This document shows positions 8,956 through 55,225 of a stretch of 64,000 bases of DNA, piece after piece. Each line of letters opens with the position of its first letter. Position 1 is the stretch's first letter. The DNA lies in NCBI GenBank assembly GCA_902785695.1, contig CACZZQ010000010.1, forward strand, positions 1-64,000. The letters are read 5' to 3'. Below the pieces are notes generated by a model. That model ran no database searches, was not told the DNA's origin, and saw only the letters and a list, made by a program, of their open reading frames with translations. This stretch comes from an uncultured Prevotellaceae bacterium (GTDB lineage: Bacteria > Bacteroidota > Bacteroidia > Bacteroidales > Bacteroidaceae). Both the position numbers and the translations under genes were made by a program.

Positions 8956-10080
8956 ATGAGATTTATAGTATCAAGCACCGCACTGAGCAACCGGTTGGTA
9001 GCTCTGTCAAGAGTAATTAACAGCAAGAACTCGTTGCCTATTCTGGGTGACTTCCTGTTTGAGATTATCGATGGGAAACTGAATCTGACAGCATCAGACA
9101 GCGAGGTGATGATGAAGACAACGCTTGAGCTGACTGAGACCGACGGTGACGGACGCTTCTGCGTAGGCAACCATGACCTATTGGAAGCTGTGAAAGGCAT
9201 CTCTGAGCAGCCCATTACCATTGAGGTAAACCAGGACGACAACCTGGCCAAGATCAGCTATCAGAACGGTATGTTCTCACTGCCTGTCGAGAATGCCGAT
9301 GAGTTCCCGCAGCCTCAGCAGATTGGCGATGGTGCCACCACTATTAATATAGCCACCAACGTACTGGCCGAGAATATCAACCGTTCTATCTTCGCTACAG
9401 CTCAGGACGAGCTCCGTCCCGTAATGAACGGTATCTATTTTGACCTGACCAGTGAGTATCTGGCTATCGTAGCCAGTGATGGCCATAAGCTGGTACGCAA
9501 CAAGGTGCTCAACATCCGCAGCGAGCAACCCGCTTCATTCATCCTGCCTAAGAAACCTGCATCGCTGCTTAAAGGCGTACTGGGTAAGCAGGGCGGTGAT
9601 GTAGTAATCCGCTTCGATGAGCGTAATGCAGAGATTAACTTCGAGGACGGCATCATTATCTGCCGCCTGATAGAAGGCCGTTTCCCCAACTACAACTCTG
9701 TGATACCTCAGAGCAACCCCAACCAGTTGACTATTGACCGCATGGGACTGCTGGCAGCACTCCGTCGCGTACAGCCTTTCTCCAACGATTCCAGCAACCT
9801 GATCCGTTTCCACGTTGAGAACGGAACGCTGCAGCTTGACGCAGAAGATTATGACTTCTCAAAGACCGCTACAGAGCGCATGACTTGCGATTACAACGGT
9901 ATGCCTATGAGCATCGGATTTAAGGGATCATCATTTATTGAGATACTGAGCAACTTCGACTGCGACCAGGTCATCATACAGTTGGCCGACCCCAGCCGTG
10001 CCGGATTGGTATTGCCTTCCGAACAGCCTGAAAATCAGGATGTGCTGATGCTGATGATGCCAATGCTGATCAATGATTAA
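8956..10080 (+). CDS. dnaN: DNA polymerase III beta subunit (sliding clamp)
   Basis: 374 residues, the normal clamp length. Three clamp repeats are recognisable: start MRFIVSSTAL, central SDGHKLVR, and the C-terminal hydrophobic pocket region ending in LMMPMLIND. The dimeric ring tethers the replicative polymerase and other enzymes to DNA. It leads a plus-strand series: DEDDh exonuclease, coaBC, rlmD. Confidence 0.97.
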   Translation: MRFIVSSTALSNRLVALSRVINSKNSLPILGDFLFEIIDGKLNLTASDSEVMMKTTLELTETDGDGRFCVGNHDLLEAVKGISEQPITIEVNQDDNLAKISYQNGMFSLPVENADEFPQPQQIGDGATTINIATNVLAENINRSIFATAQDELRPVMNGIYFDLTSEYLAIVASDGHKLVRNKVLNIRSEQPASFILPKKPASLLKGVLGKQGGDVVIRFDERNAEINFEDGIIICRLIEGRFPNYNSVIPQSNPNQLTIDRMGLLAALRRVQPFSNDSSNLIRFHVENGTLQLDAEDYDFSKTATERMTCDYNGMPMSIGFKGSSFIEILSNFDCDQVIIQLADPSRAGLVLPSEQPENQDVLMLMMPMLIND

Positions 10081-10109
10081 TGCATCATTCATAATGCATA
10101 ATTCATAAT
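10079..10109. repeat. Heptamer repeat (AATGCAT/AATTCAT), about 4.4 units
   Basis: Units AATGCAT, CATTCAT, AATGCAT, AATTCAT and AAT follow the last two bases of the dnaN stop codon with an exact 7-bp period. It fills most of the 42-bp gap between dnaN and the exonuclease gene. Confidence 0.8.
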
Positions 10110-10122
10110 AGGTTGAGAATAA

Positions 10123-10989
10123 ATGAAACTGAATTTAAATAAGCCACTGGTCGTCTTCGATTTGGAGACGACCGGTCTTGATTTGGTCAAGGACCGAATC
10201 ATACAGATATCCTATATTAAGGTTTATCCCGACGGACACGAGGAGCGGGGTGACCACCTGGTTAACCCGGAATGCCATATTCTGCCTATCATCACGCAAT
10301 TGACAGGCATTAGGAATGAGGATGTGCAAGACCAGCCCACCTTCAAACAGCTGGCCAAGAGTTTGGCAGAAAAGTTCACGGGTTGCGACTTTGCAGGTTT
10401 CAACTCCAACAATTTCGATATTCCCTTGCTGGCAGAGGAGTTTCTGCGTGCCGGCATCGACTTTGACTTCTCCAAGTGCCGACTCATCGATGCCTGCACC
10501 ATCTTCAGGAAGATGGAACGCCGCAACCTTGCCTCAGCCTATAAGTTCTACTGCGGTCGTAAGATGGAAGAGGACTTTGAGGCTCACCGTGCCGATCAGG
10601 ACACAGAAGCCACCTATCGCGTGCTGATGGGCGAATTGGATTATTATACGGAAGAGAAGCAGCGTGAACTTGGTGAGGATCCTGAAGGTCGTGTATTGAC
10701 AAACGACATGGATTGTCTGGCACAATTCTCAAAAGCCAACAATAATGTAGACTTTGCAGGCCGCATCATTTGGGGCGAGGCGAAGGATGCCCAAGGCAAC
10801 ACCATCACGGACAAAGACGGCAAGCCCGTCATGGTAGAATACTTCAATTTCGGCAAGCATAAAGGCAAGACCGTGGCCGAAGTTCTCCGTACCGACATGG
10901 GCTACTACGCTTGGATTATGGGCGGCGAGTTTACATATAACACCAAACAGGTGCTGACCCGCATTCGTCTGCGCGAGGCACAGAAATAA
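10123..10989 (+). CDS. DnaQ-like 3'-5' exonuclease with extra C-terminal domain
   Basis: 288 residues. The DEDDh exonuclease domain (about 1-180) shows Asp13/Glu15 in FDLETTGLD, Asp99 in NSNNFDIPLL, and His155/Asp160 in HRADQDTEA. The C-terminal 100 residues contain FNFGKHKGKTVAEV and GYYAWIMGGEF, a small module found at the end of exodeoxyribonuclease X-like proteins. Its place directly after dnaN suggests proofreading or repair linked to the clamp (inference). Confidence 0.9.
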   Translation: MKLNLNKPLVVFDLETTGLDLVKDRIIQISYIKVYPDGHEERGDHLVNPECHILPIITQLTGIRNEDVQDQPTFKQLAKSLAEKFTGCDFAGFNSNNFDIPLLAEEFLRAGIDFDFSKCRLIDACTIFRKMERRNLASAYKFYCGRKMEEDFEAHRADQDTEATYRVLMGELDYYTEEKQRELGEDPEGRVLTNDMDCLAQFSKANNNVDFAGRIIWGEAKDAQGNTITDKDGKPVMVEYFNFGKHKGKTVAEVLRTDMGYYAWIMGGEFTYNTKQVLTRIRLREAQK

Positions 10990-10993
10990 CAAT

Positions 10994-12184: not shown

Positions 12185-13662
12185 TGGCGAGAAACAAGAA
12201 ACCATTACCCTTATTAGAAAACATTACTATCGAGGCCGTAGCAGCAGAAGGCAAATGTCTGTTCCACTGGAACGAACTGGTGGTATTCGTACCGTTTTGC
12301 GTGCCTGGCGACATGTGTGACATTCAGATTCGTCGTAAGAAGCACTCGTTTGCCGAAGGCGAAGTAGTGCGGTTCGTAAAGAAGAGCGACGTACGTGCAG
12401 TACCTTTCTGCCAGCATTTCGGTGTTTGCGGCGGCTGCAAATGGCAAAACCTGCCATACGAAGAGCAACTAAAATTCAAACAGCAACAAGTATTCGATCA
12501 GCTGCATCGCATTGGCAAGGTGGAGTTGCCAGAGTTCCGCCCTATTCTGGGTAGCGTAAAGACACAGGAATATCGCAACAAGCTGGATTACGGATGCGCT
12601 AACAAGCGCTATCTGACGAAAGAGGAAATGAGGAGCCTCCCCCCAGCCCCCTCCGAAGGAGGTGGAGCCAAGGATGTACCTGCCATCGGTTTCCATATCA
12701 CAGGTGCGTTCGATAAGATTCTTCCTATTGAGAAGTGCTGGCTGATGGATGATTTGCACAATTGCATCCGCAACGACATTCGTGACTATGCGATAGAGCA
12801 TGGTCTTTCGTTCTTCGACCTCAGGGCGCAGGTAGGACTCTTGCGCGATGTGATTATCCGCAACTCTGCCAGCGGAGAGTGGATGGTCATCATACAGTTC
12901 CACTTAGGAGCCTCCCCCAGCCCCTCCGAAGGAGGGGAGAAACATTGGGATAGCGAAGACGGAGAAAAAGCACTCGGATTGTTGCAGCATGTAGCAGACA
13001 CGTTCCCGCAGATCACTTCCCTACTCTATCTGGACAACCAGAAGTGCAACGACACCATTGGCGATCAGGAGATCCTGGTGTTCAAGGGCGAGGATCATAT
13101 CTTCGAACTGATGGAGGATCTGAAGTTCAAGGTGGGGCCAAAGTCGTTCTATCAGACGAACACCGAGCAGGCCTATCATCTTTACAGCGTTGCACGCGAG
13201 TTTGCAGGATTGACGGGCAAAGAGATGGTGTACGACCTCTATACAGGAACGGGCACTATAGCCAACTTCGTAGCCAAGAAAGCAAAGAAGGTCATCGGTA
13301 TTGAGTATGTCCCCGAGGCTATTGAGGATGCAAAAATCAACTCTGAGATTAACGGCATTGAGAACACGCTGTTCTATGCCGGCGATATGAAAGATATTCT
13401 GACGGATGAATTTATTGCCGAGCACGGACGTCCCGATGTCATCATCACCGACCCGCCCCGTGCAGGTATGCACCCCGATGTAGTAAAAACCATTCTGCGT
13501 GCTGCTCCTGAACGTATCGTCTATGTATCATGCAATCCTGCCACGCAGGCTCGCGACCTGCAGGATTTGGACGAAGCGTACAAGGTCGTAGAAGTACAAC
13601 CCGTGGATATGTTCCCGCATACCCCGCACGTTGAGAATGTTGTACTGTTGGTGAAAAGGTGA
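12184..13662 (+). CDS. rlmD: 23S rRNA (uracil-5-)-methyltransferase, RumA/RlmD family, with two repeat-derived insertions
   Basis: 492 residues. The N-terminal TRAM-like domain is followed by a 4Fe-4S site, Cys76, Cys82 and Cys85 in CQHFGVCGGC, with a fourth Cys probably in IEKCW. The SAM-binding motif is DLYTGTGTIANF. The catalytic Cys lies in VSCNPATQARDL, after DPPRAGMH. These enzymes methylate C5 of a uridine in 23S rRNA; the exact position is not decidable here. Two segments (SLPPAPSEGGG near residue 153 and ASPSPSEGGE near 243) do not belong to the family. They are coded by GC-rich palindromic repeats inserted in frame. The TGA stop lies within a GTGAAAA repeat. Confidence 0.93.
   Translation: MARNKKPLPLLENITIEAVAAEGKCLFHWNELVVFVPFCVPGDMCDIQIRRKKHSFAEGEVVRFVKKSDVRAVPFCQHFGVCGGCKWQNLPYEEQLKFKQQQVFDQLHRIGKVELPEFRPILGSVKTQEYRNKLDYGCANKRYLTKEEMRSLPPAPSEGGGAKDVPAIGFHITGAFDKILPIEKCWLMDDLHNCIRNDIRDYAIEHGLSFFDLRAQVGLLRDVIIRNSASGEWMVIIQFHLGASPSPSEGGEKHWDSEDGEKALGLLQHVADTFPQITSLLYLDNQKCNDTIGDQEILVFKGEDHIFELMEDLKFKVGPKSFYQTNTEQAYHLYSVAREFAGLTGKEMVYDLYTGTGTIANFVAKKAKKVIGIEYVPEAIEDAKINSEINGIENTLFYAGDMKDILTDEFIAEHGRPDVIITDPPRAGMHPDVVKTILRAAPERIVYVSCNPATQARDLQDLDEAYKVVEVQPVDMFPHTPHVENVVLLVKR
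12632..12669. repeat. GC-rich palindromic element inserted in rlmD, copy 1
   Basis: GGAGCCTCCCCCCAGCCCCC leads into the hairpin CCTCC GAA GGAGG. It codes for SLPPAPSEGGGA in frame. Confidence 0.85.
12907..12937. repeat. GC-rich palindromic element inserted in rlmD, copy 2
   Basis: GGAGCCTCCCCCAGCCCC leads into CCCCTCC GAA GGAGGGG, a 7-bp stem. It codes for GASPSPSEGGE in the same reading frame as copy 1, 275 bp away. Confidence 0.85.
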
Positions 13663-13673
13663 AAAAGTGAAAA
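13651..13673. repeat. GTGAAAA repeat with 8-bp period
   Basis: GTGAAAA occurs at 13651, 13659 and 13667. The middle copy supplies the TGA stop codon of rlmD. Confidence 0.65.
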
Positions 13674-13708
13674 AGGTATATAAGTTAAATGTAAAAAGAA
13701 TCGAGACT

Positions 13709-14753: not shown

Positions 14754-14787
14754 AGTGAAGAGTGAAGAGTGAAGAATTTGCTACCGC
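14754..14787. repeat. Heptamer repeat (AGTGAAG)x3 plus TTTGCTACCGC tail
   Basis: Three exact 7-bp units (14754-14774) lie between the porin and ansA, followed by TTTGCTACCGC (14777-14787). The same tail follows related arrays at 17507-17517 (reverse strand) and 46622-46631. Confidence 0.85.
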
Positions 14788-14790: not shown

Positions 14791-15831
14791 ATGCAAAGTA
14801 AAGTTCTTTTAATCTACACAGGCGGAACGATTGGTATGAACCAAAACCCGCAGACAGGTGCTCTGGAGCCATTCGACTTCGAGCACCTGCTCAGCCGTGT
14901 GCCGGAGCTGAAGCAATTTCAGACCGAGATAGCCACCTATCAGTTCAACCCTCCTATCGACTCCAGCGATATGTCGCCCCGTCTGTGGACAGAACTGGCC
15001 CATATCATTGCCGACCACTACGAGGAATACGACGGTTTTGTGATTCTTCATGGCACCGACACGATGGCTTACACAGCATCGGCCCTATCGTTCATGCTCG
15101 AGAACCTTTCGAAACCTGTGATCCTCACTGGCTCGCAACTGCCTATCGGTCAGCTGCGCACCGATGGCAAGGAGAACCTGATTACCAGTATCGAGATGGC
15201 TGCGGCAAAACGAGAGAACGGTTCTGCGATGGTACCTGAAGTGGGTATCTACTTCAACGGACACCTGATGCGCGGCAACCGCACCACCAAACAGAGTGCC
15301 GATGAGTTCAACGCCTTTGAGTCGTTCAACTATCCTCATCTGGCTGATGCTGGTGTAGAGATTACCTATCACAATGAGTTCATTCATCGCCCATCACCCG
15401 TCACCCGTCACCCGTCACCCTTTACGCCTCAATTCAAACTTGACAACAACGTGATCATTTTCTCGTTGTTCCCTGGCATCCGCGAAGACCTGATTCGTCA
15501 CATCATTGCTACGCCTAACCTACGAGCCATCGTGATGCGTACCTTTGGCTCAGGCAATGCGCCTCAGAGTCCCTGGCTTATCAATGCCCTTCGCGAGGGA
15601 ACCCGCAATGGCAAGGTCATCATCAACATTAGCCAATGTCTGCAAGGCTGTGTGGAGATGGGACGCTATGATACCGGCTATCAACTACAGGAAGCGGGTG
15701 TTATCAGCGGTTACGACGGAACGGTGGAGGCAGCAGTTACCAAACTGATGTATCTACAAGGGAAATACGAAGACGCTGAACAGGTGCGCAAGTATATGAG
15801 ACAAAACATCCGTGGAGAAATCTCCATTTAA
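14791..15831 (+). CDS. ansA: Type I L-asparaginase
   Basis: 346 residues. It hydrolyses asparagine to aspartate and ammonia. The first catalytic Thr is in YTGGTIGM and the second in HGTDTMAYTASALSF. TGSQLPIGQLRTDGKENL is a type I (cytosolic) asparaginase segment, and no signal peptide is present. Between YHNEFI and LDNNVIIFSLFPGI lies RPSPVTRHPSPFTPQF, which is foreign to the family and coded by a CACCCGT heptamer array inserted in frame. It probably forms a surface loop. Confidence 0.93.
   Translation: MQSKVLLIYTGGTIGMNQNPQTGALEPFDFEHLLSRVPELKQFQTEIATYQFNPPIDSSDMSPRLWTELAHIIADHYEEYDGFVILHGTDTMAYTASALSFMLENLSKPVILTGSQLPIGQLRTDGKENLITSIEMAAAKRENGSAMVPEVGIYFNGHLMRGNRTTKQSADEFNAFESFNYPHLADAGVEITYHNEFIHRPSPVTRHPSPFTPQFKLDNNVIIFSLFPGIREDLIRHIIATPNLRAIVMRTFGSGNAPQSPWLINALREGTRNGKVIINISQCLQGCVEMGRYDTGYQLQEAGVISGYDGTVEAAVTKLMYLQGKYEDAEQVRKYMRQNIRGEISI
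15388..15422. repeat. Heptamer repeat (CACCCGT) inside ansA
   Basis: Five units (CGCCCAT, CACCCGT x3, CACCCTT) with an exact 7-bp period code for the RPSPVTRHPSPF insertion. Confidence 0.9.
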
Positions 15832-16398: not shown

Positions 16399-17465
16399 GC
16401 CAACAAGATTTGCACTATGCGCTCTGCCGTACGACCGTCCCATCGGTCAGGCAGGGCGCATTTTTTCCATTCGCCTGCCTCAATACGCAGGATCTCCTCC
16501 TTCAATCGCTGAGGATCTTCTCCCACAAGGACATTACTGCCTACTGTGACCGTCTCCTCATGCTCTGTGTAACTGTTAAGTGTGATGCAAGGCACACTAT
16601 TAAAGGTTGCCTCCTCTGCCACATTACCAGAATCGGTGATGATGCCTTTTGCATTGGCGATGAGCCAACCGAACTCCAAGTAGGGGAGTGAAGAGTGAAG
16701 AGTGAAGAGTGAAGAATTTCTAAAAGCCATCATACGACTTACTGTTTCGTAGGCCTTTCCACGCAGCGGGGCGATAATGGGGGTATCGCCGGCAGCCTCA
16801 GTCATTACCTCTAACATCAGCTTTAGTTTCTCATCATCAGCAAGCAATGCCTTTCTATTGAGTGTGAAAACAAAGTAGTTTTGAGGTTGGAGGTTGGAGA
16901 TTTCAGGTTTAACGAGTCGCTGATGGTTAAAGCGGAGGGTATCCATCAGGATGTTTCCGACCATATAGGTATTGTTGCTATCCGACTGCTCCCTACTGGC
17001 TATGCTATTGCTCTTGATGCCAGCCGTAAAGAGATAGTCACTAAGGGCATCAATAACCAGTCGGTTTACCTCCTTCGGCATATTCATATCGAAGGAACGG
17101 GTGCCAGCCACCAGATGCGCCAGTTTGATGCCACGCTTCTTCGTAACGATAGCAGCAGCCATTGTAGAGGCGAGGTCATCGACCACGATAACCACATCGG
17201 CAGGATTATCTTCGAGATAAGCATCGAAATGTGCCATCACCCTACTGGTAATCTCATTCAGGCTGACGCTGTCCACCCCAAAGAATACTGATGGACGCGG
17301 CATCTGAAGGTCATTAAAGAGCGACGGTTCCAGCGTAGGGTCATCCTCACACCCTGTATATACCAGTTCGTACTCAGCCCCATCCGTCTTCTCAATGGCA
17401 CGAATCAGCGGGGCCACCTTCACAAAATTAGGGCGTGCACCCGCCACGATACAGATCTTTTTCAT
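16395..17465 (-). CDS. Divergent UDP-GlcNAc 2-epimerase-like (WecB fold) protein with altered active site
   Basis: 356 residues with the GT-B-like layout of non-hydrolysing UDP-N-acetylglucosamine 2-epimerases (start [19 protein letters not shown], late DSGNVAEEA and [10 protein letters not shown]). Mapped on the Bacillus enzyme, Asp95 is kept (Asp97 in VVDDLAS) and Glu131 is kept (Glu132 in PKEVNR). The catalytic Glu117 position is Ala120 (HLVAGTRS instead of HVEAGLRT), and the His213 position is Asn203 (TLNRKAL instead of xPHRxEN). It may be a non-catalytic or altered-substrate paralogue. Two repeat-derived insertions are present, SNLQPQN near 190 and [11 protein letters not shown] near 253. 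The former is a short GAGGTTG repeat at 16883-16896. Confidence 0.75.
16687..16714. repeat. Heptamer repeat (AGTGAAG)x4 inside the wecB-like gene
   Basis: Four exact units. Read on the minus strand they code for [10 protein letters not shown] in frame. Confidence 0.9.
16883..16899. repeat. Short heptamer repeat (GAGGTTG)x2 inside the wecB-like gene
   Basis: Two exact units and a partial third code on the minus strand for SNLQPQ, between EI and NYFVFTLNR. Confidence 0.6.
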
Positions 17466-17506: not shown

Positions 17507-17555
17507 GCGGTAGCGAATTATTCACTCTTCACTCTTCACTCTTCACTCTTCACTT
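17507..17555. repeat. Heptamer repeat (TTCACTC)x5 with GCGGTAGCGAA flank
   Basis: Units run 17521-17555. On the minus strand this is (GTGAAGA) followed by TTCGCTACCGC, the same head and tail order as at 14754-14787. The TGA stop of the upstream TPR gene (17550-17552) lies inside the repeat. Confidence 0.85.
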
Positions 17556-22585: not shown

Positions 22586-22592
22586 TTTTTAT

Positions 22593-22641
22593 AATGCTTA
22601 ATTCTTAATGCTTAATGCTTAATGCTTAATGCTTAATGCTT
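22593..22641. repeat. Heptamer repeat (AATGCTT)x7 in the gyrA leader
   Basis: Seven 7-bp units, one of them AATTCTT, lie 8 bp upstream of the gyrA ATG. They fall inside the predicted 5' untranslated region (transcription start near 22723), so they are probably transcribed. Confidence 0.9.
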
Positions 22642-22729
22642 AATTGAACAATGAACTTTTAGGCTGGAAATTGCGTTTAAGGCCATTTTTAAGCCCGCTG
22701 ACGCGTTTTCGCCTTTTTGTTTCGGCGTA

Positions 22730-22737: not shown

Positions 22738-22746
22738 CAAAAAAAA

Positions 22747-22774
22747 GTGAGAAGTGAAAAGTGAAAAGTGAAAA
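22747..22774. repeat. Heptamer repeat (GTGAAAA)x4
   Basis: GTGAGAA then three GTGAAAA units, exact 7-bp period, just upstream of the gyrA -7 element. Confidence 0.8.
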
Positions 22775-22798
22775 AATTACATTTTTTTATTTTTAAAT

Positions 22799-22877
22799 TT
22801 TTACATTTTTACATTTTTGCATTTTTACAATTTTGCATTTTTGCATCTTTACATTTTTACATTTTTACATTTTTCAT
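22799..22877. repeat. AT-rich octamer repeat (TTTTACAT), about 10 units
   Basis: Units TTTTACAT/TTTTGCAT with an 8-bp period run up to and over the TGA stop of the DUF5715-like gene, which is made by the repeat edge. It fills the space between that gene and the gyrA promoter. Confidence 0.85.
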
Positions 22878-24114: not shown

Positions 24115-24155
24115 AAAGAAAATGCGTTTTTCTTCTTCATTTGGCTTCATCGGCA

Positions 24156-24247
24156 TTTTCATTCAGGCCAATCGGCACTTTCATTCAGGCCGCTCTGCAC
24201 TTTCATTCAGGCCTGTCTGCACTTTCATTCAGGCCAATCACCTACTT
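24156..24247. repeat. 22-bp tandem repeat A (CACTTTCATTCAGGCC), four units
   Basis: CATTCAGGCC starts at 24160, 24182, 24204 and 24226, an exact 22-bp period. The base pairs after GGCC vary between units. The period is not a multiple of 3 and no gene runs through it. Confidence 0.9.
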
Positions 24248-24250
24248 GCC

Positions 24251-24333
24251 GACCAAGGTCGGCCGATCAGCTGACCCGGGTCGGCCGATCTGCTGACTAA
24301 GGTCGGCCGATTTGCTGACCTTGGTCGGCCGAT
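24251..24333. repeat. 22-bp tandem repeat B (GACCNNGGTCGGCCGAT), four units
   Basis: Units start at 24251, 24273, 24295 and 24317, again exactly 22 bp. Each carries two dyads, GACCNNGGTC and TCGGCCGA; the two central bases change (AA, CG, TT; one copy is GACTAAGGTC). It shares GGCCNNTCNGC with repeat A but is shifted by 7 bp. Confidence 0.9.
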
Positions 24334-35027: not shown

Positions 35028-35062
35028 CTAAACTCTAACCTCTGAACTCTAAACTCTAAACT
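35028..35062. repeat. Heptamer repeat (CTAAACT)x5
   Basis: Five units (CTAAACT, CTAACCT, CTGAACT, CTAAACT x2) with an exact 7-bp period fill the whole gap between the gpsA stop and the stop of the convergent kinase gene. Confidence 0.9.
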
Positions 35063-37940: not shown

Positions 37941-40119
37941 TATCAGACTATGGGCGCACTATGCTGCATCCTTTCTGCTTTTAACAGTAATGGCACTTCC
38001 AATGTCTGCACAGAAGCTTTTCACACTGGAGGATCTGAACTTCGGTGGCACCAACTTCCATAACTTGAGGCCCAAGAATTTGTTCCTCACCTGGTGGGGC
38101 GACCAACTGGTGCGCACAGATGTAGAGGAATGCAAGCTCATTGATAGCAAGACAGGCAAGGAGACACTGCTGTTTACACTCGATGATGTCAATAAATGGG
38201 CAGGCAACGATGATAACCATTACGTGCGCCACCTGATGAATGCCACCTTCCCCTACCCCAACGAAACTCTCGTTCTACTGGGATTCAAAAAGTCCATGAT
38301 TCTGCTTGACTTTGAAAAGAAACAGATTGTATGGCAGGACAGCATCTCACAACAGACCTGTAACGAATGGAATTCCGCTTCAAAAGCCACGGTCTATAAG
38401 GAGGACAACCAACTTTTTGTGGTAGATGCTCAGGGCAACAAGCAACAACTGACTACTGACGGTTCACGTGAGATTGTATATGGAGAAGCCGTACACCGTA
38501 ATGAGTTCGGCATTGAGAAAGGTACGTTCTGGAGCCCCGATGGTCAGCGTCTGGCATTCTATCGCATGGATCAGAGTATGGTGACTGATTATCCGCAGGT
38601 AAACATCTTCCCTCGTACAGCTGCCTATGAGCCAGATAAATACCCAATGGCAGGCATGACCAGCCATGAGGTGACAGTTGGAGTTTATGATATCATAACC
38701 CACAAGACAATCTACCTGAAAACAAAAGATGTCCCCTCGGGGGCAGCATGGGAGGCTTGTTATTTCACCAACATCGCCTGGAGTCCTGATGCGAAAACCA
38801 TCTATATGTTCGAGCTTAACCGCGACCAGAACGACTGCAGACTGGTGAGCTATGATGCCGAGACGGGTGAACGCCTACAGGAACTCTATCGCGAGACTAA
38901 CGATAAATACGTAGAACCAGAGCATCCCATCCTGTTCCTGCCTTGGGACAGCAATCTGTTTGTCATGCAGAGCCAGAAGGACGGCTATAACCACCTATAC
39001 CTATATAATATAAAAGGTGAACAGGTGGCACAACTTACCAAAGGTCCTTGGGTAGTACTCGACGTGCTGGGCTTCAACAAAAAGGACAAGAGCATTATCA
39101 TTGCATCCAACGAGAAACACCCTTTGCAGCGTAATCTCTATGCCGTCAACCTGAAAACCTTGAAGCGCACACCACTCGATAACGGAGAAGGTGTACACAG
39201 AGGAACATTATCTGCATCAGGCACACAGCTATACGATAAGTACAGCACACCGACAACGCCAAATACTATTGACGCTATTTCAATTCACAATTCACAATTC
39301 ACAATTCACAATTTGCTTACTGCTCCCGACCCATGGAATGACTATATCGTACCACAGTTTGAGTCAGGATGCATCAAAGCTGCCGATGGTGTGACAGACC
39401 TCTATTGGCGTATGGTGAAGCCTGCGGACTTCGATCCAGCGAAGAAATATCCTACGGTGGTTTATGTCTACGGCGGTCCTCATGCCCATAACGTAGAGGC
39501 TTCGTGGCACTGGTACAGCAGGTCGTGGGAGACCTATATGGCACAGAAGGGCTATATCGTCTTCATACTCGACAATCGTGGCAGTGAGAATCGCGGACGC
39601 GAGTTTGAACAGGCAACCTTCCGACAGCTGGGACAGATAGAGATGCTGGATCAGATGAAAGGAGTGGAATACCTGAAGAGCCTGCCATATATCGACATAA
39701 ACCGACTGGGCGTACACGGATGGTCGTATGGTGGCTATATGACCATCTCACTGATGACCAACTATCCAGACGTGTTCAAAGTAGGTGTGGCTGGCGGCCC
39801 CGTCATCGACTGGCAGTGGTACGAGGTGATGTATGGCGAGCGTTACATGGACACCCCACAGCAAAACCCTGAGGGCTATGCCAAGACCAGCCTCATTGCA
39901 AAGGCGGGCAACCTAAAGGGTAAGCTCCAGATTATCACCGGCTATAACGACAAAACCGTGGTGCCACAACACTGTCTGTCGTTCCTCGATGCCTGTATCA
40001 AGGCCGGCACCCAACCCGACTTCTTTGCATACCCTGGCGAAGAGCACAATATGCGAGGCCATGCCAGTGTGCATCTGCATGAACGGATTACGCAATATTT
40101 TGAAGACTACCTGAAATAA
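37927..40119 (+). CDS. Secreted S9B dipeptidyl peptidase IV-like protease
   Basis: 730 residues. The N-terminus (MTTSNIRLWAHYAASFLLL then TVMALPMSAQ) is a signal peptide. A beta-propeller domain (about 30-460) precedes an alpha/beta-hydrolase domain. The catalytic Ser is in GWSYGGYM, the Asp in GYNDKTV and the His in EEHNMRGH. DPP4-type enzymes remove X-Pro or X-Ala dipeptides from peptide N-termini in the periplasm, feeding amino-acid fermentation. The ATG at 37927 is the first compatible with a signal peptide; the frame stays open further up inside rlmL but codes there for unrelated basic sequence. Between the propeller and the hydrolase lies ISIHNSQFTIHNL, coded by an AATTCAC heptamer array. 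Confidence 0.92.
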   Translation: MTTSNIRLWAHYAASFLLLTVMALPMSAQKLFTLEDLNFGGTNFHNLRPKNLFLTWWGDQLVRTDVEECKLIDSKTGKETLLFTLDDVNKWAGNDDNHYVRHLMNATFPYPNETLVLLGFKKSMILLDFEKKQIVWQDSISQQTCNEWNSASKATVYKEDNQLFVVDAQGNKQQLTTDGSREIVYGEAVHRNEFGIEKGTFWSPDGQRLAFYRMDQSMVTDYPQVNIFPRTAAYEPDKYPMAGMTSHEVTVGVYDIITHKTIYLKTKDVPSGAAWEACYFTNIAWSPDAKTIYMFELNRDQNDCRLVSYDAETGERLQELYRETNDKYVEPEHPILFLPWDSNLFVMQSQKDGYNHLYLYNIKGEQVAQLTKGPWVVLDVLGFNKKDKSIIIASNEKHPLQRNLYAVNLKTLKRTPLDNGEGVHRGTLSASGTQLYDKYSTPTTPNTIDAISIHNSQFTIHNLLTAPDPWNDYIVPQFESGCIKAADGVTDLYWRMVKPADFDPAKKYPTVVYVYGGPHAHNVEASWHWYSRSWETYMAQKGYIVFILDNRGSENRGREFEQATFRQLGQIEMLDQMKGVEYLKSLPYIDINRLGVHGWSYGGYMTISLMTNYPDVFKVGVAGGPVIDWQWYEVMYGERYMDTPQQNPEGYAKTSLIAKAGNLKGKLQIITGYNDKTVVPQHCLSFLDACIKAGTQPDFFAYPGEEHNMRGHASVHLHERITQYFEDYLK
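39282..39309. repeat. Heptamer repeat (AATTCAC)x4 inside the dpp4-like gene
   Basis: Four exact units, coding for IHNSQFTIHN in frame at the border of the propeller and catalytic domains. Confidence 0.92.
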
Positions 40120-43479: not shown

Positions 43480-44748
43480 ATGAAGATTTTACTATTGGGA
43501 AGCGGCGGCCGCGAGCACGCCTTGGCTTGGAAAATTGCTCAGAGCGAGCGAGTGGAGGAACTTTTTATTGCCCCTGGCAACGCAGGCACGTCAAACTGTG
43601 GCGTAAATGTCAACATGAAGGCAGATGACTTTGAGGCCATCAAGCTGTTTGTGGTAGAAAAAGGCATCGACATGGTGATAGTTGGTCCTGAAGACCCATT
43701 GGTAAAAGGTATCTACGATAATCTGAAGCATGACGAGAGGACAAAGGACGTACCCGTTATCGGCCCATCAAAAGCCGGTGCTGTGCTTGAAGGCTCCAAG
43801 GACTTTGCCAAGGGTTTCATGCAACGCCATAACATCCCAACCGCCCGCTACGAGACTTTCGATGGCGAACATCTGGAGGAGGGTCTGAAGTTCTTGGAGA
43901 CCCTTGAAGCCCCATACGTACTCAAGGCCGACGGTCTGTGTGCAGGTAAGGGCGTACTGATTCTCCCCACCCTCGAAGAAGCCCAAAAAGAGCTGAAGGA
44001 GATGCTGGGCGGTATGTTTGGCAATGCCAGCAGCCGCGTAGTCATCGAGGAATTTTTGAGTGGCATCGAGTGTTCTGTCTTCGTGCTGACCGATGGTGAC
44101 CACTATAAGATTCTGCCTGAAGCCAAGGACTACAAGCGTATTGGCGAGGGCGACACTGGTCTGAACACAGGTGGTATGGGTAGTGTTTCTCCCGTTCCCT
44201 TTGCCACCAAAGAGTGGATGCAGAAAGTAGACGACCGCATCATCCGTCCTACTGTAGAGGGGTTGAAGGCCGAAGGCATCGACTACAAAGGTTTTATTTT
44301 CTTTGGACTTATCAATGTGAAGGGTGAGCCAATGGTCATCGAATACAACTGCCGCATGGGCGACCCTGAGACCGAGAGCGTGATGTTGCGACTGAAGAGC
44401 GACATCGTTGACCTCTTTGAAGGTGTAGCAGAGGGCAATCTCGATCAGCGTCGGATAGAATTCGATGAGCGTGCAGCCGTCTGCGTCATGCTTGTCAGCG
44501 GAGGTTATCCCGAGACTTACAAGAAAGGTTATCCCATTACAGGCATTGAGAATGTGGAAGGCTCTATCGTCTTCCATGCAGGAACAGCCATGAAGGACGG
44601 TCAGGTAGTGACTAATGGCGGTCGCGTCATCGCTGTTTCCTCATACGGAAAGGACAAGGAAGAAGCCCTGAAGAAATCATTTACCGAGGCCCAGAAGATA
44701 CAATTCACCGACCAGTATTTCCGTCGTGACATTGGAAAGGACCTATAA
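43480..44748 (+). CDS. purD: Phosphoribosylamine--glycine ligase
   Basis: 422 residues. It catalyses the second step of purine synthesis, joining phosphoribosylamine and glycine with ATP. The N-terminal [12 protein letters not shown], the ATP-grasp segments ([35 protein letters not shown]) and the late GGYPETY are all present. The stop is followed immediately by a degenerate heptamer array and a membrane-protein gene. Confidence 0.97.
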
Positions 44749-44769
44749 GAGGTAAGAAGTGAGAGGTGA
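44749..44769. repeat. Degenerate heptamer repeat that supplies a GTG start codon
   Basis: GAGGTAA, GAAGTGA and GAGGTGA are three 7-bp units directly after the purD stop. The best start of the next gene, GTG at 44766, lies in the third unit. Confidence 0.55.
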
Positions 44770-46272: not shown

Positions 46273-49200
46273 ATGAAACAATTCCGTATAGTGGACAATA
46301 TTCTCGGCTGGCTGACATTCTTCATTGCCGCCTTTGTTTATTGTTCAACTGTCGAGCCGACAGCCTCTTTCTGGGACTGCCCTGAGTTTATTACAACTGG
46401 TTATCGTCTGGAAGTCGGTCACCCACCTGGTGCACCTTTCTTCATGCTGACGGCCAATCTTTTCTCACAGTTAACCAGCGACCCCACTAAGGTGGCCTTC
46501 ATGGTCAATACGATGAGTGCGCTGCTGTCAGCTACGTGTATTCTCTTCCTTTTCTGGAGTATCACGCACCTGGCACGCCGTCTGCTTATAAGTGAAGAGT
46601 TAAGAGTGAAGAGTGAAGAGTCTGCTACCGCCATACCTCTGAGTAAGCTGGTGACTATCGAGGCCTGCGGACTGGTGGGTGCACTGATTTACACCTTCAG
46701 CGACACCTTCTGGTTCTCAGCTGTCGAGGGTGAGGTTTATGCCTACTCTTCAGCATTCACAGCTGTCGTATTCTGGCTGATACTGAAATGGGAAGACCAT
46801 GCTGACGAGCCTCATAGCGACCGTTGGCTGGTATTGATTATGTATATGACAGGCCTCTCCATTGGTGTGCACCTGCTGAACCTGCTGTGTCTGCCTGCCA
46901 TCGTATTGGTTTACTACTTCAAGCGTTTCCCCAATGCCAATGTCAAAGGCAGTATCGTAGCCCTGCTCATCTCGTTTGTGATTCTGGCTGCCGTGCTCTA
47001 TGGCGTGGTTCCAGGCATTATCACCGTAGGAGGATGGTTTGAGCTGTTCTTTGTCAACACGCTGGGTATGTCGTTCAACACGGGTGAGTACATCTACCTC
47101 TTCCTTTTGGTTGTGTTGGTTATCTGGGCTATCTACGAGACACAGATGGCCAAGGAGACCAAAGGTAGCTGGATGCGCCAGAACATTGCCTTCCTCATTG
47201 CCATTGCCATGCTGGGCATTCCCTTCTACGGCTTTGGCTGGAGTGCATTCTTCATCGGTGCGCTTGTCCTGACGCTCATCGGCCTTGTGCTGTTCTTGCC
47301 TGGCATGAAGAAGCAGCTTATCTCTCCACGTCTGAAGAACACCACGCTGCTCTGTATGCTGATGCTGATGATTGGCTATTCTACTTATGCTGTCATCGTA
47401 ATCCGTTCTTCGGCCAACCCTCCAATGGATCAGAACTCACCAGAGGATATCTTTACGTTAGGAAACTACCTGAGCCGCGACCAGTATGGCTATCGTCCTC
47501 TGGCTTACGGACAGGCCTACAGTTCTGAATATAAGATTGACAATGACGGTCATGTCAAGATGGATCAGGGAGCACCTATCTATCAGCGTAAGGAGAAGGC
47601 TTCAGACAATGAGCCCGACACCTATTTTGTGGTGAGCACAAAAGACAAGCCCATCTATGCGCAGAATATGCTGTTCCCACGTATGTACTCCAACAATCAG
47701 CGTCATATCCAGGACTACAACAGCTGGATTGGCGGTGTGAAGGGTACCAAGGAACCGTCGAACTACCGTGACGGAGATTTCGTGACCATTCCTACGCAGT
47801 GGGAGAACCTGAAGTTCTTCTTCATCTATCAGTGCAACTGGATGTACTGGCGTTACTTTCTGTGGAACTTCGCAGGCCGTCAGAACGACATTCAGGGACA
47901 CGGCGAGTTGGATCACGGCAACTGGCTCAGTGGTATTCCCTTCATCGACAATGCCCGTCTGGGCGACCAGTCGCTGCTGCCTGATGACCTGAAGAACAAC
48001 AAAGGCCACAACGTCTTCTACTGTCTGCCTCTGCTGCTCGGTTTGTTGGGTATTTTCTGGCAAATCTTCATGCGCGGCAAGAAGGGTGTACAGCAGTTCT
48101 GGGTGGTATTCTTCCTGTTCTTCATGACAGGTCTGGCCATCGTCATCTACCTGAACCAGACACCCCAACAGCCACGTGAGCGCGACTATGCCTACGCAGG
48201 TTCGTTCTATGCCTACGCTATCTGGTGCGGACTTGGTGTGGCTGCTCTGACTCAGATGGTATGGAACAGCTTTAAGAAGTATCAGCTTGTTACAGCCTCT
48301 ATCATTGGTGCTGCCGCCCTGTTGGTACCTATTCAGATGGCTTCGCAGACGTGGGACGATCACGACCGCAGCGGTCGCTACACCTGCCGTGACTTCGGCC
48401 AGAACTACCTGATGTCTTTGCAGGAAGAGGGTAACCCCATCATCTTCACCAACGGTGATAACGACACCTTCCCACTCTGGTACAATCAGGACACCGAAGG
48501 TGTACGTACCGATGCACGTGTTTGTAACTTGTCGTACCTGCAGACCGACTGGTACATCGACCAGATGATTCGTCCTGCCTACGACTCCCCTGCCCTGCCA
48601 ATCAAGTGGAGCCGTTTGGAATACTGCTCTGGCACCAACGAGTACGTCCGTGTGGACAATAATATCCGCAAGGCTATTAAACTGCTGCAACAGATGTATC
48701 CCGAAGAGACCAAGGAACTCTTTGGTGACAATCCCTTCGAGTTGAAGAACGTGCTGGAATTCTGGGTGCGCGACCATCGCGATGCCAACCTCAAGCAGCG
48801 TCAGAAGAATGCCATCGAGTTTGCCTACACCAAGATGCCCGAGGTGATGAACGACCGTCGCTACTATCTTGACGAGACGCTCAACATCATTCCTACCGAC
48901 ACCGTTTATATGACTATTGACAAGGAGGCAGTCAAGAAGAGTGGTATGCTGATTCAGGGCATTGCCGACTCTACCGATGTTGATGCTGCTATCCCCGACC
49001 GTATGACCATCTCGCTGGCAGGCCTTGGCGGTCTCGACAAGAGCAAGCTGATGATGCTTGAGATGCTGGCCAATGCCAACTGGACGCGTCCTATCTACGT
49101 GGCCTATACCGTGGGACAGGAGAACTACATGAACCTGGGCGACAACTTCATACAGGAAGGCCTAACCAACCGTATCACGCCGTTCACCACGAACATCAAC

Positions 49201-50466: not shown

Positions 50467-50556
50467 TCAGTTTCCTCCATACCGTATATTCTGGCTTGTG
50501 TGTACAAAAATAATAAAAAAAGCTGAAAGAGCCAAACTTTATTAATTTTTTATTCG

Positions 50557-50564
50557 TACCTTTG
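50557..50564 (+). promoter_or_regulatory. -7 element of the aldose-epimerase-like gene
   Basis: TACCTTTG fits TAnnTTTG, 32 bp before the ATG at 50596. No TTG at the standard distance. Confidence 0.6.
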
Positions 50565-50595
50565 CGGTCATAACAATCTTAAAAACATCAGACAA

Positions 50596-51462: not shown

Positions 51463-51553
51463 AAAATATCGCTCACTGTTTAAACCATTGGGGCTGCAAC
51501 GCATCAAAGAAAATATGCTAACTTACATTAACCAATAAAAAAAAGCCAAAACA

Positions 51554-52063: not shown

Positions 52064-52162
52064 AAAAAGATTCCGTCACAAATTCTGCCTGTCGGAATTC
52101 TTGCGTCCCTTCGGTAGCAAGCGTCCTTCGGCGGAGCGGACAGAATTGACAGAATACGAAGA

Positions 52163-52192
52163 AATCCCAGCCACAGCGATGTGACTGGGATT
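52163..52192 (+). terminator. Hairpin downstream of the Met-rich repeat protein gene
   Basis: AATCCCAGCCACA and TGTGACTGGGATT pair over 13 positions with one mismatch and a GCGA loop. The following CGTTTATTTCT is only weakly T-rich. Confidence 0.6.
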
Positions 52193-52243
52193 CGTTTATT
52201 TCTCCGCAAAACAAGTTAAGACGCTATGTATCAGAAAGATAAG

Positions 52244-52381
52244 TGCGGAGCATTTCGTAGGGTTGATGAAAGTGAAATGAGATGGGGGGATACATTGTTA
52301 TCTGGCACAATAAACATAGTGGATTGGGCGAGACGTTTGGTAGCAAAGACAGGTAAGAGGTGAAGTAGGAAATGCTCCGCA
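52244..52381. repeat. 13-bp perfect inverted repeat enclosing 112 bp
   Basis: TGCGGAGCATTTC (52244-52256) and GAAATGCTCCGCA (52369-52381). A partial third copy, TTGCGGAGTATTT, lies near 52424. The enclosed segment has no open frame. Confidence 0.75.
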
Positions 52382-52493
52382 GTTCCTAACCTTTATACAG
52401 GGCATTTCCAAGAATTTGCGGAGTATTTTTTAATAGTACTTTCAGGATTTCTTTAGGTTTTTCATATTGAAGGAGATTACGATGACAAATTCC

Positions 52494-52636
52494 TAAGTGG
52501 CGTACTTACGGTTACTAAGTGGCATACTTACGTTTCTAAGTGGCATACTTACGTCCATAAGTGGCATACTTACGTTCATAAGTGGCATACTTACGTTCAT
52601 AAGTGGCATACTTACGGTTCCTAAGTGACGTACTTA
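52494..52636. repeat. Seven-unit tandem array with 21/22-bp period and dyad units
   Basis: TAAGTGGCATACTTA units start at 52494, 52516, 52537, 52558, 52579, 52600 and 52622 (spacings 22, 21, 21, 21, 21, 22). Each unit has the 5-bp dyad TAAGT/ACTTA around GGCAT. The end units vary to GGCGT and GACGT. Confidence 0.92.
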
Positions 52637-52745
52637 CCAGAAAGATTATCGTGGAAATGTAAAAAACAAACTAATTAATTTGCCGTTTGAAAAAGAAACT
52701 GATCGCACGCAGCTATTATCCTGGAATATCGAGAGGACTAAAAAC

Positions 52746-52784
52746 AATACGCCCCAATAGTCAAATAAGCTATCGGGGTGTATT
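52746..52784 (-). terminator. Terminator of the S9 peptidase gene
   Basis: AATACGCCCCAATAG and CTATCGGGGTGTATT pair over 15 positions with two wobbles. On the minus strand the stem is followed by GTTTTTAG, directly after the peptidase stop. Confidence 0.8.
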
Positions 52785-52786
52785 TT

Positions 52787-55225
52787 TTAAAGGTTCTTCT
52801 TAGGATAGAGGGCATCCCACCAAGTGGGGTCATCCTTCAACCAACGGGCGAACCACGCCATTTGGGTAGCCAGCCACTTTTCCTTCTTGGAGTAGTCGAG
52901 GATGTGGTGATTCTCGCCTTTCACCTGCACAAGGGCAACCTCACGACCGAGGAGTTTCAAGGCGGTGAACATCTGCAGGCTCTCGATAAGGGGCACGTTG
53001 GTGTCGGCATCGCCGTGAAGGAGCAGCAGGGGCGTGTGAATCTTGTCGGCATTGAAGAGGGGCGACTGATTGACGTACAGGTCGCGATGGCTCCAAGGAT
53101 AGCTGTTGGCCATACTGACCTCACTGTAGTTATAGCCCCAGTAACCCTCGCCCCAGTAGCTGGTGTGGTTGGCAATGCCCGCATGAGAGACGGCAGCAGC
53201 GAAGATGTCGGTCTGCGTCTGCAAATACTGCGTCATGAAACCACCATAGGAGGCACCCATGCAACCAATCTTCTCCTTATTAATAAAGGGATGAGCCTCG
53301 CAAATCTTCTTCGTACCCTCGATGATGTCCTCTGCAGGTCCACGACCAGCGGTGTTCACGTGGCGCGAAGCCCACTCCTGTCCGAAGCCCGTAGCGCCAC
53401 TTGGCTCAATGATGTAGGCCACATAGCCCAGCGAGTTCCAATACTGAGGGGCATAAGGCGACTCGAAATATCTTGAAACAGGCGAGCAACCGCCATAGTA
53501 ATACACAATCATCGGATATTCCTTCGAGGCGTCAAAGTCCTTTGGCAGATAGAGGCGACCATAGACCGTATCACCCTTGGAATTAGTAAAGTTCCAGTCT
53601 TGGCAAGTGCCAATCTCGGCATCACCAAGAGCCTCAGAACCTACAAAGAAGGTCTGGTTCTTCTTGATTTTCAAATCAAAGACGTAAGCCGAGGCCGGTT
53701 CCATCGTCTTATACGACAGGTAACCGATGACACTTGCGTTGGATGCCATATCGTAGCGGTAAGCATAGTCGCCATCGATAGGCAGCTTCGTGATTTTGCC
53801 CGTCTTGGGATTTAGGGCGAACATATTCACGTAGTCACGATCCTCGGCCGTGAAATAGATATTGCCGTCGGCAGCCGACCAATCGCAATTGCTGATGCTG
53901 GGGTCGAAGTCCTTCGTAAGCGGCGTTACCTTCTTCGTAGCGAGGTCGAAAAGGAAGAGCTCGTTCTCCGTCATGCTGGGTGTCACGTTTGCAGGCAACT
54001 GACAGCCAATACGGTTGAAAGCCTCTGGATTACCCATAAAAAGGAGTTGGGTGCCGTCGGGCGAGAATGCACAACCGCCGAGGAAGCCCTCGCACATCAG
54101 TATGGTATCGACTTTCAGCGTCTGGGCATCCATAATGAATACATCCTGCACCTCAGTGGGGCGTTTAGACAGACGCGAATAGGAAGAGACGATGAGCAGT
54201 TTCCGTCCGTCGCGAGAGATATCATAGAGATGTTCACCCTTGTTGCCGAAGGTGATGCGCTGGCAAAGCCCGTTCTTCAGGTCGTATTTCTTCAGATAGC
54301 TGCGCTTACGCCAACCTGGCTGACGGTCATCCATCTCGAGCACCTCATAGACATCAGCATCCTCCTTGGGACCTTCTTCGCTGCACGAGAAAATCAGATA
54401 ATCCTCTGTAGGACTAATGGTATAGCTCTCACGCGGAATGTCGTAGGCCCACTGTGTGCGCTGTCCCGTCAGCGGATCCACCTTGAAGAGCACACGCTTA
54501 TCCCCCTGATATTCCTCTTCGATATAGGACGTAGAGCGTGGCATCCACTTTACGTTCTTACTCAGGTAGCGCAACAAGCGCTGCGTCTTCACCTCACGCA
54601 GTTCATAATCCCAACGACTGTTGCCACCTCGTTCCGTGGTCTGGTAAGACACTACCACGTATTTTCCATCAGCCGAAAGTGAGATACCACGCACGCGCTT
54701 ACCATCTGTCAGGTCGTGTACCATGTAGGGATGCTGCTTTGAGGTCTGAAGTCTGATGTTTGATGTCTGAGTATCAAACGTCACCTGAATCGAGTCCGTA
54801 TCGCTAGGCTCAGCCAGATAGCGGATGGCAAAGGTGTGGTGTTCCGGTGCCAGTTTCAGGTCGCCCCCAGCCTCTTGTCCGTCCACGAATAGCTTATAGT
54901 TCTTAGGACCCTTCACGCTGACCGAGCCCTTCACATAGTCCTTATTATTCACAAAGAAAGAAAGGATGCCCACGCTCTTGCTGTCCTTCAGAGAAGGGAG
55001 CACCTTCCCACTGAACACCGTCGTAGGCTCAGCAGAGAGTGCCAAGCCACCCAACAGGCTCTTCTCGTCGAACTTCTTGCCGTTCACATCTACGGAATCC
55101 AAACCTACAGGAGCCTGCACAGCAAAGGGTCCTGCCATATTAAACTCCGTCACAGCTGTCTTTACCTGCGCACCAGCACTTATCGTACCGGCTAACAGCG
55201 TCATCACTATAAAAATCTTATTCAT
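52787..55225 (-). CDS. Secreted S9 family prolyl oligopeptidase/acylaminoacyl-peptidase-like protease
   Basis: 812 residues. The signal peptide is MNKIFIVMTLLAGTISAGAQ. A long beta-propeller region (about 200-560) precedes the alpha/beta-hydrolase. The nucleophile is in GCMGASYGGFM, the Asp in LHGDADTNVP and the His in GENHHILDY. It likely degrades oligopeptides in the periplasm, parallel to the dpp4-like gene at 37927. The start at 55225 gives a clean signal peptide; the frame is open upstream to 55348 but codes there for low-complexity sequence. SNIRLQTSK, near residue 155, is coded by a GTCTGAT heptamer array. Confidence 0.92.
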   Translation of the reverse strand: MNKIFIVMTLLAGTISAGAQVKTAVTEFNMAGPFAVQAPVGLDSVDVNGKKFDEKSLLGGLALSAEPTTVFSGKVLPSLKDSKSVGILSFFVNNKDYVKGSVSVKGPKNYKLFVDGQEAGGDLKLAPEHHTFAIRYLAEPSDTDSIQVTFDTQTSNIRLQTSKQHPYMVHDLTDGKRVRGISLSADGKYVVVSYQTTERGGNSRWDYELREVKTQRLLRYLSKNVKWMPRSTSYIEEEYQGDKRVLFKVDPLTGQRTQWAYDIPRESYTISPTEDYLIFSCSEEGPKEDADVYEVLEMDDRQPGWRKRSYLKKYDLKNGLCQRITFGNKGEHLYDISRDGRKLLIVSSYSRLSKRPTEVQDVFIMDAQTLKVDTILMCEGFLGGCAFSPDGTQLLFMGNPEAFNRIGCQLPANVTPSMTENELFLFDLATKKVTPLTKDFDPSISNCDWSAADGNIYFTAEDRDYVNMFALNPKTGKITKLPIDGDYAYRYDMASNASVIGYLSYKTMEPASAYVFDLKIKKNQTFFVGSEALGDAEIGTCQDWNFTNSKGDTVYGRLYLPKDFDASKEYPMIVYYYGGCSPVSRYFESPYAPQYWNSLGYVAYIIEPSGATGFGQEWASRHVNTAGRGPAEDIIEGTKKICEAHPFINKEKIGCMGASYGGFMTQYLQTQTDIFAAAVSHAGIANHTSYWGEGYWGYNYSEVSMANSYPWSHRDLYVNQSPLFNADKIHTPLLLLHGDADTNVPLIESLQMFTALKLLGREVALVQVKGENHHILDYSKKEKWLATQMAWFARWLKDDPTWWDALYPKKNL
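54744..54771. repeat. Heptamer repeat (GTCTGAT)x4 inside the S9 peptidase gene
   Basis: GTCTGAA, GTCTGAT, GTTTGAT and GTCTGAG with an exact 7-bp period. They code on the minus strand for QTSNIRLQTS in frame. Confidence 0.85.

Follow-up and report, generated by a model that had tools for sequence, protein, structure and literature searches.

Dispersed heptamer arrays of a Prevotellaceae genome and their probable relation to the ends of S23 gene cassettes

Described heptamers and S23 genes

Tandem heptamers have been described beside a gene of the S23 family (PF05635, 23S_rRNA_IVP, a four-helix bundle) in the intervening sequence (IVS) of the Coxiella 23S rRNA, where GACAGAT units lie upstream of the S23 start (PMC4990558). 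The passages of that paper on the family describe a Xanthomonas S23 protein as a homopentamer of four-helix bundles that forms a toroid. In this report, we describe dispersed 7-bp tandem arrays in a window of 64,000 nucleotides (contig CACZZQ010000010.1, positions 1 to 64,000) from an uncultured Prevotellaceae bacterium (assembly GCA_902785695.1; here G000, 2.48 Mb in 61 contigs, 78% complete), together with cassettes, found elsewhere in this genome and in its genus, that consist of one small PF05635 gene between two inverted, unit-matched arrays. We consider it probable that the window arrays derive from the ends of such cassettes as solo, non-autonomous copies, and that the S23 protein fixes the period of the arrays and not their sequence.

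Dispersed heptamers are known from several phyla. TAACTGA repeats occur in Beggiatoaceae, cyanobacteria, and five Bacteroidetes (MacGregor 2015, PMC4679880), and GGGAATC and GGGGA(T/C)T repeats occur in Xanthomonas and Nostoc, respectively, in a paper whose passages on the subject note the over-representation of heptamers in bacteria without detailed study (PMC4692102). The original prediction, which knew of no described counterpart in Prevotella-like genomes, must be qualified in view of the TAACTGA family, for which no link to S23 is made in the main text of PMC4679880. The TAACTGA family shares a patchy distribution with the window arrays; unlike them it has a fixed unit, and neither S23 nor four helix is mentioned in that main text. 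The TAACTGA unit was found in none of the 41 arrays detected by a mismatch-tolerant scan at lag 7 of 464 kb. The Xanthomonas heptamers are dispersed like those of the window (186 and 183 in two genomes, with four units the commonest), but they and the Nostoc heptamers are treated as G-quadruplex formers, and S23 or four helix occurs 0 times in PMC4692102. In their layout, the dispersed tandem heptamers of our genome also resemble the short tandemly repeated repetitive (STRR) sequences of cyanobacteria. It was thus already known that IVS elements carry S23 genes, that several phyla have heptamers, and that in Coxiella the two lie side by side (the last from PMC4990558). Among the matches listed in the open-licence literature, none but the Coxiella IVS paper joins S23 or four-helix-bundle genes to tandem repeats; within the same scope, a general link between S23 and heptamers, the classes of period, and the proposed origin of dispersed heptamers from solo arms appear to be new.

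The cassettes share with the 23S rRNA IVS an S23 family gene in an element with inverted repeats, and the Coxiella IVS has heptamers as well (PMC4990558). They differ in that they are found at ordinary gene junctions and on plasmids, in that the inverted repeat on each side is itself an array of short period, and in that solo arms are scattered genome-wide. The S23 gene between inverted repeats that marks an IVS is present in the genus cassettes and not at the window arrays. A position inside a 23S rRNA gene was not found: no Rfam family reaches its gathering score anywhere in the window, and the cassettes at loci L012 and L038 lie between protein genes. In the REPtrons, formed by repetitive extragenic palindromes (REP) and their associated tyrosine transposase (RAYT), a gene is flanked by inverted short repeats and solo copies are dispersed genome-wide. 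The cassettes share this layout; unlike REPtrons, they encode a four-helix bundle without known nuclease activity, end in tandem arrays, and use a different unit in each cassette. PF05635, and no Y1 transposase (RAYT), was found between the arms of the cassettes examined, a RAYT elsewhere in the genome not having been searched for. In miniature inverted-repeat transposable elements, terminal inverted repeats go together with a target-site duplication; here, inverted arms were observed, and the relatives are too distant for a duplication to be defined.

Arrays around S23 genes and their period

A profile search of our genome gave five PF05635 matches, none of them on the window's contig, and the window itself has no tblastn match to S23; it holds solo arrays only. 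PF05635 was found in 0 of 14 control genomes. Four of the five S23 genes are flanked on both sides by period-7 arrays and the fifth by arrays alternating between 8 and 9 bp. The ends of L079 form a perfect 40-bp inverted repeat, composed of an outer array of 32 bp plus 8 bp. Of the five cores in this array, four are AATT; the single AGTT variant has the same place in both arms, and the RNA is predicted to fold into an arm-arm stem (z -7.3).

PF05635 was present in 52 of 60 genus genomes. The genus loci examined were 30 taken as the best per genome, 40 listed matches with E values of ~2e-30 to 9e-25, the other copies of our genome, and L012/L038; 78 S23 loci were located, and after removal of 2 duplicates 76 were distinct. 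A periodic array was found at 65 of the 76 genes, with the same period on both sides at 61, compared with 52 and 5, respectively, when 290 called genes of G000 (including two cassettes that lie in the stretches used) were scored identically. The arm period was 7 in 38 loci, 8 in 20, alternating 8/9 in 3, 10 in 3, and 11 in 1, with none assigned in 11. The numbers of arrays located 0-300 and 300-600 bp from S23 were 82 and 5 for period 7, 40 and 0 for period 8, 8 and 1 for period 9, and 5 and 0 for period 10. The left flank matched the reverse complement of the right flank with a score of at least 16 in 56 of 76 loci, compared with 4 of 149 mismatched pairs. When scanned for period 7 alone, the best-scoring genus loci looked largely free of arrays, which changed when other periods were scanned. 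The 40 chosen loci had period-7 arrays on both sides in 24 cases, on one side in 3, and on neither in 13, many of which are of period 8. The cassettes of L144 (G009) and L112 (G037) have several array blocks per arm, evenly spaced (every 54 bp for the right arm of L112), and look as if the arms amplify.

The period follows the S23 phylogeny while the sequence of the unit varies. On a tree of 75 S23 proteins (64 labelled with a period; L080 and two duplicates were left out), which has few columns and 24 open forks, the arm period changes 9 times, compared with a mean of 23.7 and a minimum of 19 in 300 shuffles of the labels. The mechanism first envisaged from the window, which would set the unit length but leave the unit sequence free, agrees with the many units of the S23 cassettes and with this tree; the fixed length is not always 7, since periods of 8, 8/9, 10, and 11 also occur. 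By phmmer, S23 matches the PDB entry 2RLD, which has five chains, with an E value of 1.6e-32. Among the best period-7 arms (n = 124), 45 are 30-33 bp in length, which at period 7 corresponds to five cores of 4-5 bases; 24 are longer and 55 shorter.

An explanation closer to the IVS was also considered, in which the arms pair in the transcript and RNase III excises the element, with the S23 gene as a mere passenger and the solo arrays as what is left after decay. The arms of L079 do pair into a stem of ~40 bp, and S23 genes, with heptamers in Coxiella, are known from 23S rRNA intervening sequences (PMC4990558). Excision of this kind would, however, explain neither why the period follows the protein nor why the solo arrays (the 41 in 464 kb include a few cassette arms) outnumber the five S23 genes of the genome, and we regard it as very unlikely.

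Arrays were also found around S23 genes beyond the genus. A tblastn search with the L079 protein gave 25 plasmid records, mostly from cyanobacteria (11 from Nostoc) and also from Bernardetia, Treponema, Monoglobus, and Chlorohelix. In the 16 records examined, the S23 gene has period-7 arrays on both sides in 13, or in 15 when period 14 is counted, and L155, L157, and L159 have perfect 33-bp arrays of five cores each on both sides. The clear cases are from Cyanobacteriota, Bacteroidota, Spirochaetota, and Chloroflexota. At the Monoglobus locus (Bacillota), a degenerate array of period 21 on one side is all that was seen. Plasmid period-7 arrays numbered 32 at 0-300 bp and 1 at 300-600 bp, and the flanks gave an inverted repeat score of at least 16 in 11 of 16 loci, compared with 1 of 30 mismatched pairs. 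The parallel that had been drawn with cyanobacterial heptamers is borne out by these inverted heptamer arrays at cyanobacterial plasmid S23 genes. Within the phylum, PF05635 was found in 116 of 148 genomes, and period-7 arrays numbered 17 and 0 in the same two distance classes. The L079-like loci of the phylum had a period-7 array on at least one side in 19 of 29 and an inverted repeat score of at least 16 in 17 of 28, compared with 2 of 53 mismatched pairs. An array at every S23 gene was considered as a rule and rejected, most top-scoring loci of the phylum being without period-7 arrays. In two plasmids (Anabaena and Pseudanabaena) an S23 gene with arrays lies between cas2 and cas1 (L161) or adjoins cas1 (L164); 18 S23-type genes in cas loci were reported in a 2013 paper (PMC3936711).

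At one gene junction the cassette is either present or absent. Between the porin and asparaginase genes, L012 and L038 have an S23-like gene between inverted TTTGAGG arrays, and this extra gene is absent from the 18 other relatives shown. The two S23 proteins are sisters on the tree, and one shared insertion is possible. The TTTGAGG unit of the L038 cassette is also present in the epimerase loop of L038. The closest relatives found are ~75-79% identical; inverted arms are seen, and a target-site duplication is not definable at such a distance. In L012 and L038 the right arm can be read in frame as an N-terminal extension of the asparaginase, with a restart where an ATGA overlaps the stop codon of S23. 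As a general rule, such ATGA coupling to the downstream gene was rejected, as it was found at 5 of 78 loci only.

Several units of the window recur in cassette arms: AGTGAAG (L080, own genome), AGTGAAA (L112), AGTTTAG (L124), TAATGCT (L141), TAATTCA (L118), and AGAGGTG (L103). The period-8 and period-10 types of the window are matched by cassettes L131 and L105, respectively, the core AGATA being common to the period-10 pair of the window and L105. The relation between a cassette's unit and the genome holding it was determined by counting overlapping matches to three copies of the unit in 34 genomes; the reversed pattern is useless as a control for AACTGTC and AGTGAAA, for which reversal yields the same array with its phase shifted. 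CAGTTCA gave 18 matches in G008, which holds the CAGTTCA cassette (2 are from its own arm), and 1 in the other 33 genomes. AACTGTC gave 30 in G009 (3 in its cassette locus) and 5 in the other 33. Two of the four units are clearly concentrated in the genome of the cassette, and two do not discriminate.

We infer that S23 binds the arms and that the arms move. An S23 pentamer would bind one core per subunit on the single-stranded RNA or DNA of an arm. Such binding would keep the spacing constant and let the unit sequence drift, and the arms would then be copied to new places by a separate partner. A single strand is proposed because successive cores 7 bp apart on double-stranded DNA would be rotated by about two thirds of a turn, an arrangement poorly suited to reading by a ring.

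Several observations weigh against this reading. S23 proteins have no known function according to the passages on the family in PMC4990558, and the mover is therefore missing; no link to the arrays was made for the single RVT_1 gene of our genome. The period signal on the tree, which has few columns, could be plain inheritance, and the spread of arm lengths makes five cores the mode and not the rule. The 11 genus S23 genes without an assigned array have counterparts in the phylum, where the 30 top-scoring PF05635 loci have a period-7 array on any side in 8 and an inverted repeat in 10 of 29. The window units GGTGACG, GTGAATT, TGATGTC, and GAGGTTG match no cassette among those examined, which are a part of the existing ones. 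Several AACTGTC sites of G009 lie within ~11 kb of the cassette. AGTGAAA gave 45 matches in the cassette-holding G037, where 8 are from its arms, yet G031 has 38 and G007 has 19, and 15 of 34 genomes have some. ATAGTTC gave 16 matches in G033 and 37 in G037, which has no ATAGTTC cassette among the loci examined, while the cassette-holding G027 has only its own two arm matches.

A wider proposal, which we put forward as tentative and would not yet favor, is that one class of single-gene mobile element, without a recognisable transposase, is behind the heptamers of Bacteroidota, cyanobacteria, Beggiatoaceae, xanthomonads, and others, which would be its dispersed ends. A pentameric S23 protein would read five evenly spaced single-strand cores, selection would hold the period while the unit diverges freely, and this would provide every cassette with a private address and every genome with a repeat of its own. 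The link between heptamers and the S23 family gives each a testable explanation, with one protein and one oligonucleotide. If true, it would add a class of very small mobile element, with ends that insert into the housekeeping genes of gut bacteria, and an example of selection by a protein for spacing instead of sequence.

Excess, units, and gene context of the arrays

The excess of period 7 was determined by counting runs of at least 14 lag matches, with five third-order simulations as the control. The window has 7 exact runs at period 7, 2 at period 8, none at 5, 6, or 9, 1 at 10, 3 at 21, and 2 at 22. In 400 kb of our genome, taken as 20 stretches from four contigs already known to hold AGTGAAG and to this extent mildly biased, the counts were 13 at period 7, 1 at 8, 3 at 9, 0 at 5 and 6, 3 at 14, 6 at 21, and 11 at 22. 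The mismatch-tolerant scan of 464 kb gave 33 at period 7, 6 at 8, 3 at 9, 0 at 5 and 6, 8 at 21, and 14 at 22. Periods 21 and 22 are thus in excess beside period 7. The simulated sequence, for both the window and the 400 kb, has no exact run at any period, so that the arrays are not equally abundant in random sequence, and the sharp excess of 7 over 5, 6, 8, and 9 bp that had been predicted was found in the window and in the 400 kb. The common period is dominant without being exclusive, as the window also has arrays of period 8 (13651 and 22777) and period 10 (4954-5037).

Heptamer arrays are a genome-wide but patchy trait of this Prevotella-like genus. Three copies of AGTGAAG gave 42 exact matches in the whole of G000, compared with 0 for the reversed control, and 102 overlapping matches, compared with 8, when up to 2 mismatches were allowed. 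Exact matches were found in 54 of 150 genus genomes (own included), with 1 to 146 in each; the reversed control also matches in a few, such as G067 (7 and 10) and G101 (3 and 10). The original prediction of different units with one period holds for the single dominant period; the units are not a random set, and many are near variants on one strand (AGTGAAG, AGTGAAA, GTGAATT, GGTGACG, AATTGAG, AGTTTAG).

A flank motif, TGCTACCGC with at most 1 mismatch, lies within 20 bp after 6 of 12 AGTGAAG arrays (chance 0.001), those of the window being 14754, 17521, and 46591, and on either side of 3 of 29 other arrays. In the AGTGAAG-type cassette L063 of our genome, TTTGCTACCGC faces the S23 gene from both sides. 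Because AGTGAAG arrays are often joined to TGCTACCGC, this family, at least, is a defined DNA segment, composed of array and motif, and more than a microsatellite by itself. A second dispersed sequence (CCGCTCGGCCGAAGGACGCTTGCTACCGAAGGGACGCAAGAA in L056 at 4676, with close variants elsewhere, including window position 52112) shares TTGCTACC with the flank motif, and parts of this type of sequence sit in the asparaginase loop of L014 and L016, the same loop as the heptamers.

Ordinary microsatellites, arising and growing by replication slippage with the S23 genes merely among them, would account for the variable copy number, for the point changes between the units of one array, and for the length-tolerant places of some arrays. 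Slippage would not be expected to favor period 7 and leave periods 5 and 6 empty, and it does not account for the inverted unit-matched arrays around one gene family, the flank motif common after the array, and the concentration of a unit in one of 34 genomes. We judge this origin to be quite unlikely.

Relatives hold different units at the same sites. The asparaginase loop has GGTGACG in the window, CTCAAAA in L037, CTCAAAC in L014, and CACCCTT in L016, and a clear array is absent from most of the 29 aligned relatives. In the epimerase loop (16686), AGTGAAG is shared by the window and L227, while CATCACT types were found in L018 and L228 and CCTCAAA types in L025, L037, and L038. At the TPR gene junction, ACTTATC was found in L018 and L228 and TTCACTT in L038. 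The genome collections hold one genome per species, and L018/L228 and L019/L227 each look like one species from two collections. In some genomes a single unit recurs at several sites (L018; TTTGAGG in L038), and several units per genome are possible, as in G000, L038 having an AGTGAAA-type array as well.

With genes called by a simple in-house hexamer method, 19 of the 41 arrays lie within called genes and 22 outside. TGA, TAA, or TAG is present on at least one strand in most units of G000. A unit with a stop codon and a period not divisible by 3 closes all reading frames. The units of the 19 intragenic arrays have a stop codon on the non-coding strand in 16 cases and on the coding strand in 3, some having both. 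The genus left arms stop all three sense frames in 37 of 49 cases, compared with 49% for shuffled units. Of 50 right arms, 27 are free of sense stops. As a rule for the arms, the stop codon was rejected and is a bias only, 4 of 11 plasmid left arms stopping all frames.

These positions bear on a regulatory reading, in which S23 controls a regulon and the solo arrays serve as its binding sites, on mRNA or DNA, and not copies of mobile ends. Stop or start codons adjoin several of the arrays, an S23 gene could use its arms for self-regulation, and the relatives of S23 are pentameric, as are some RNA-binding rings. Translational regulation was also proposed by MacGregor for TAACTGA (PMC4679880). 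The arrays within called genes, some in loops of housekeeping enzymes, do not suit such sites, nor do sites and units that differ among related species, and the preponderance of stops on the non-coding strand fits a simple avoidance of in-frame stops. Regulation is in our estimate unlikely, and dispersal of cassette ends is the explanation we prefer.

Arrays of the window

The window arrays were located with Tandem Repeats Finder (Table 1). All 13 period-7 arrays that had been named from the sequence were recovered at period 7 with a score of at least 30. The first, at 10078-10109, scores better as a 14-mer than as a 7-mer. Four of the 13 are weak: 10078 (80% matches), 16883 (17 bp, 2.4 copies), 44748 (80%), and 54740 (83%). 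Nine window arrays passed the stricter lag-7 test.

Table 1. Arrays and associated motifs of the 64-kb window
Feature	Position	Strand	Context
Inverted pair of period-10 arrays (GGAGATAAAA / TATCTCC), ~8 bp apart	4954..5037		Tandem Repeats Finder
7/14-bp array TAATGCA/TAATTCA	10078..10109		dnaN end; first three bases are the dnaN stop codon
Period-8 array GTGAAAAA/GTGAAAAG	13651..13675	+	resembles arms of period-8 S23 cassette L131
AGTGAAG array	14754..14775	+	between porin and asparaginase genes
Flank motif ATTTGCTACCGC	14776..14787	+	directly after AGTGAAG array 14754..14775
GGTGACG array	15385..15420	-	within asparaginase gene; loop with other heptamers in some relatives
AGTGAAG array	16686..16715	+	antisense in UDP-GlcNAc 2-epimerase gene; loop with other heptamers in some relatives
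Short GAGGTTG array	16883..16899	+	within the UDP-GlcNAc 2-epimerase gene that also holds 16686..16715
AGTGAAG array (TTCACTC on +)	17521..17554	-	overlaps TPR gene 3' end; then TTCGCTACCGC on minus strand
AAGCATT-type array (TAATGCT on +)	22592..22644	-	upstream of gyrA
AGTGAAA array	22743..22774	+	between gyrA and DUF5715 gene
Period-8 array TTACATTT, 12 copies	22777..22874		Tandem Repeats Finder
AGTTTAG-type array	35028..35062	-	between glycerol-3-phosphate dehydrogenase and histidine kinase genes
GTGAATT array (AATTCAC on +)	39281..39313	-	within DPP IV-like peptidase gene
Degenerate AGAGGTG array, 80% matches	44748..44769	+	end of phosphoribosylglycinamide synthetase gene
AGTGAAG array	46591..46621	+	within TMEM260-like gene; then CTGCTACCGC
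Degenerate TGATGTC array, 83% matches	54740..54770		within S9 peptidase gene

The window also contains repeats of longer period. Two arrays with a 22-bp period, ATCGGCACTTTCATTCAGGCCA and TGCTGACCAAGGTCGGCCGATC, are located at 24149-24333, and seven copies of a 21-bp repeat, TTCCTAAGTGGCATACTTACG, lie at 52490-52637 near the S9 peptidase gene.

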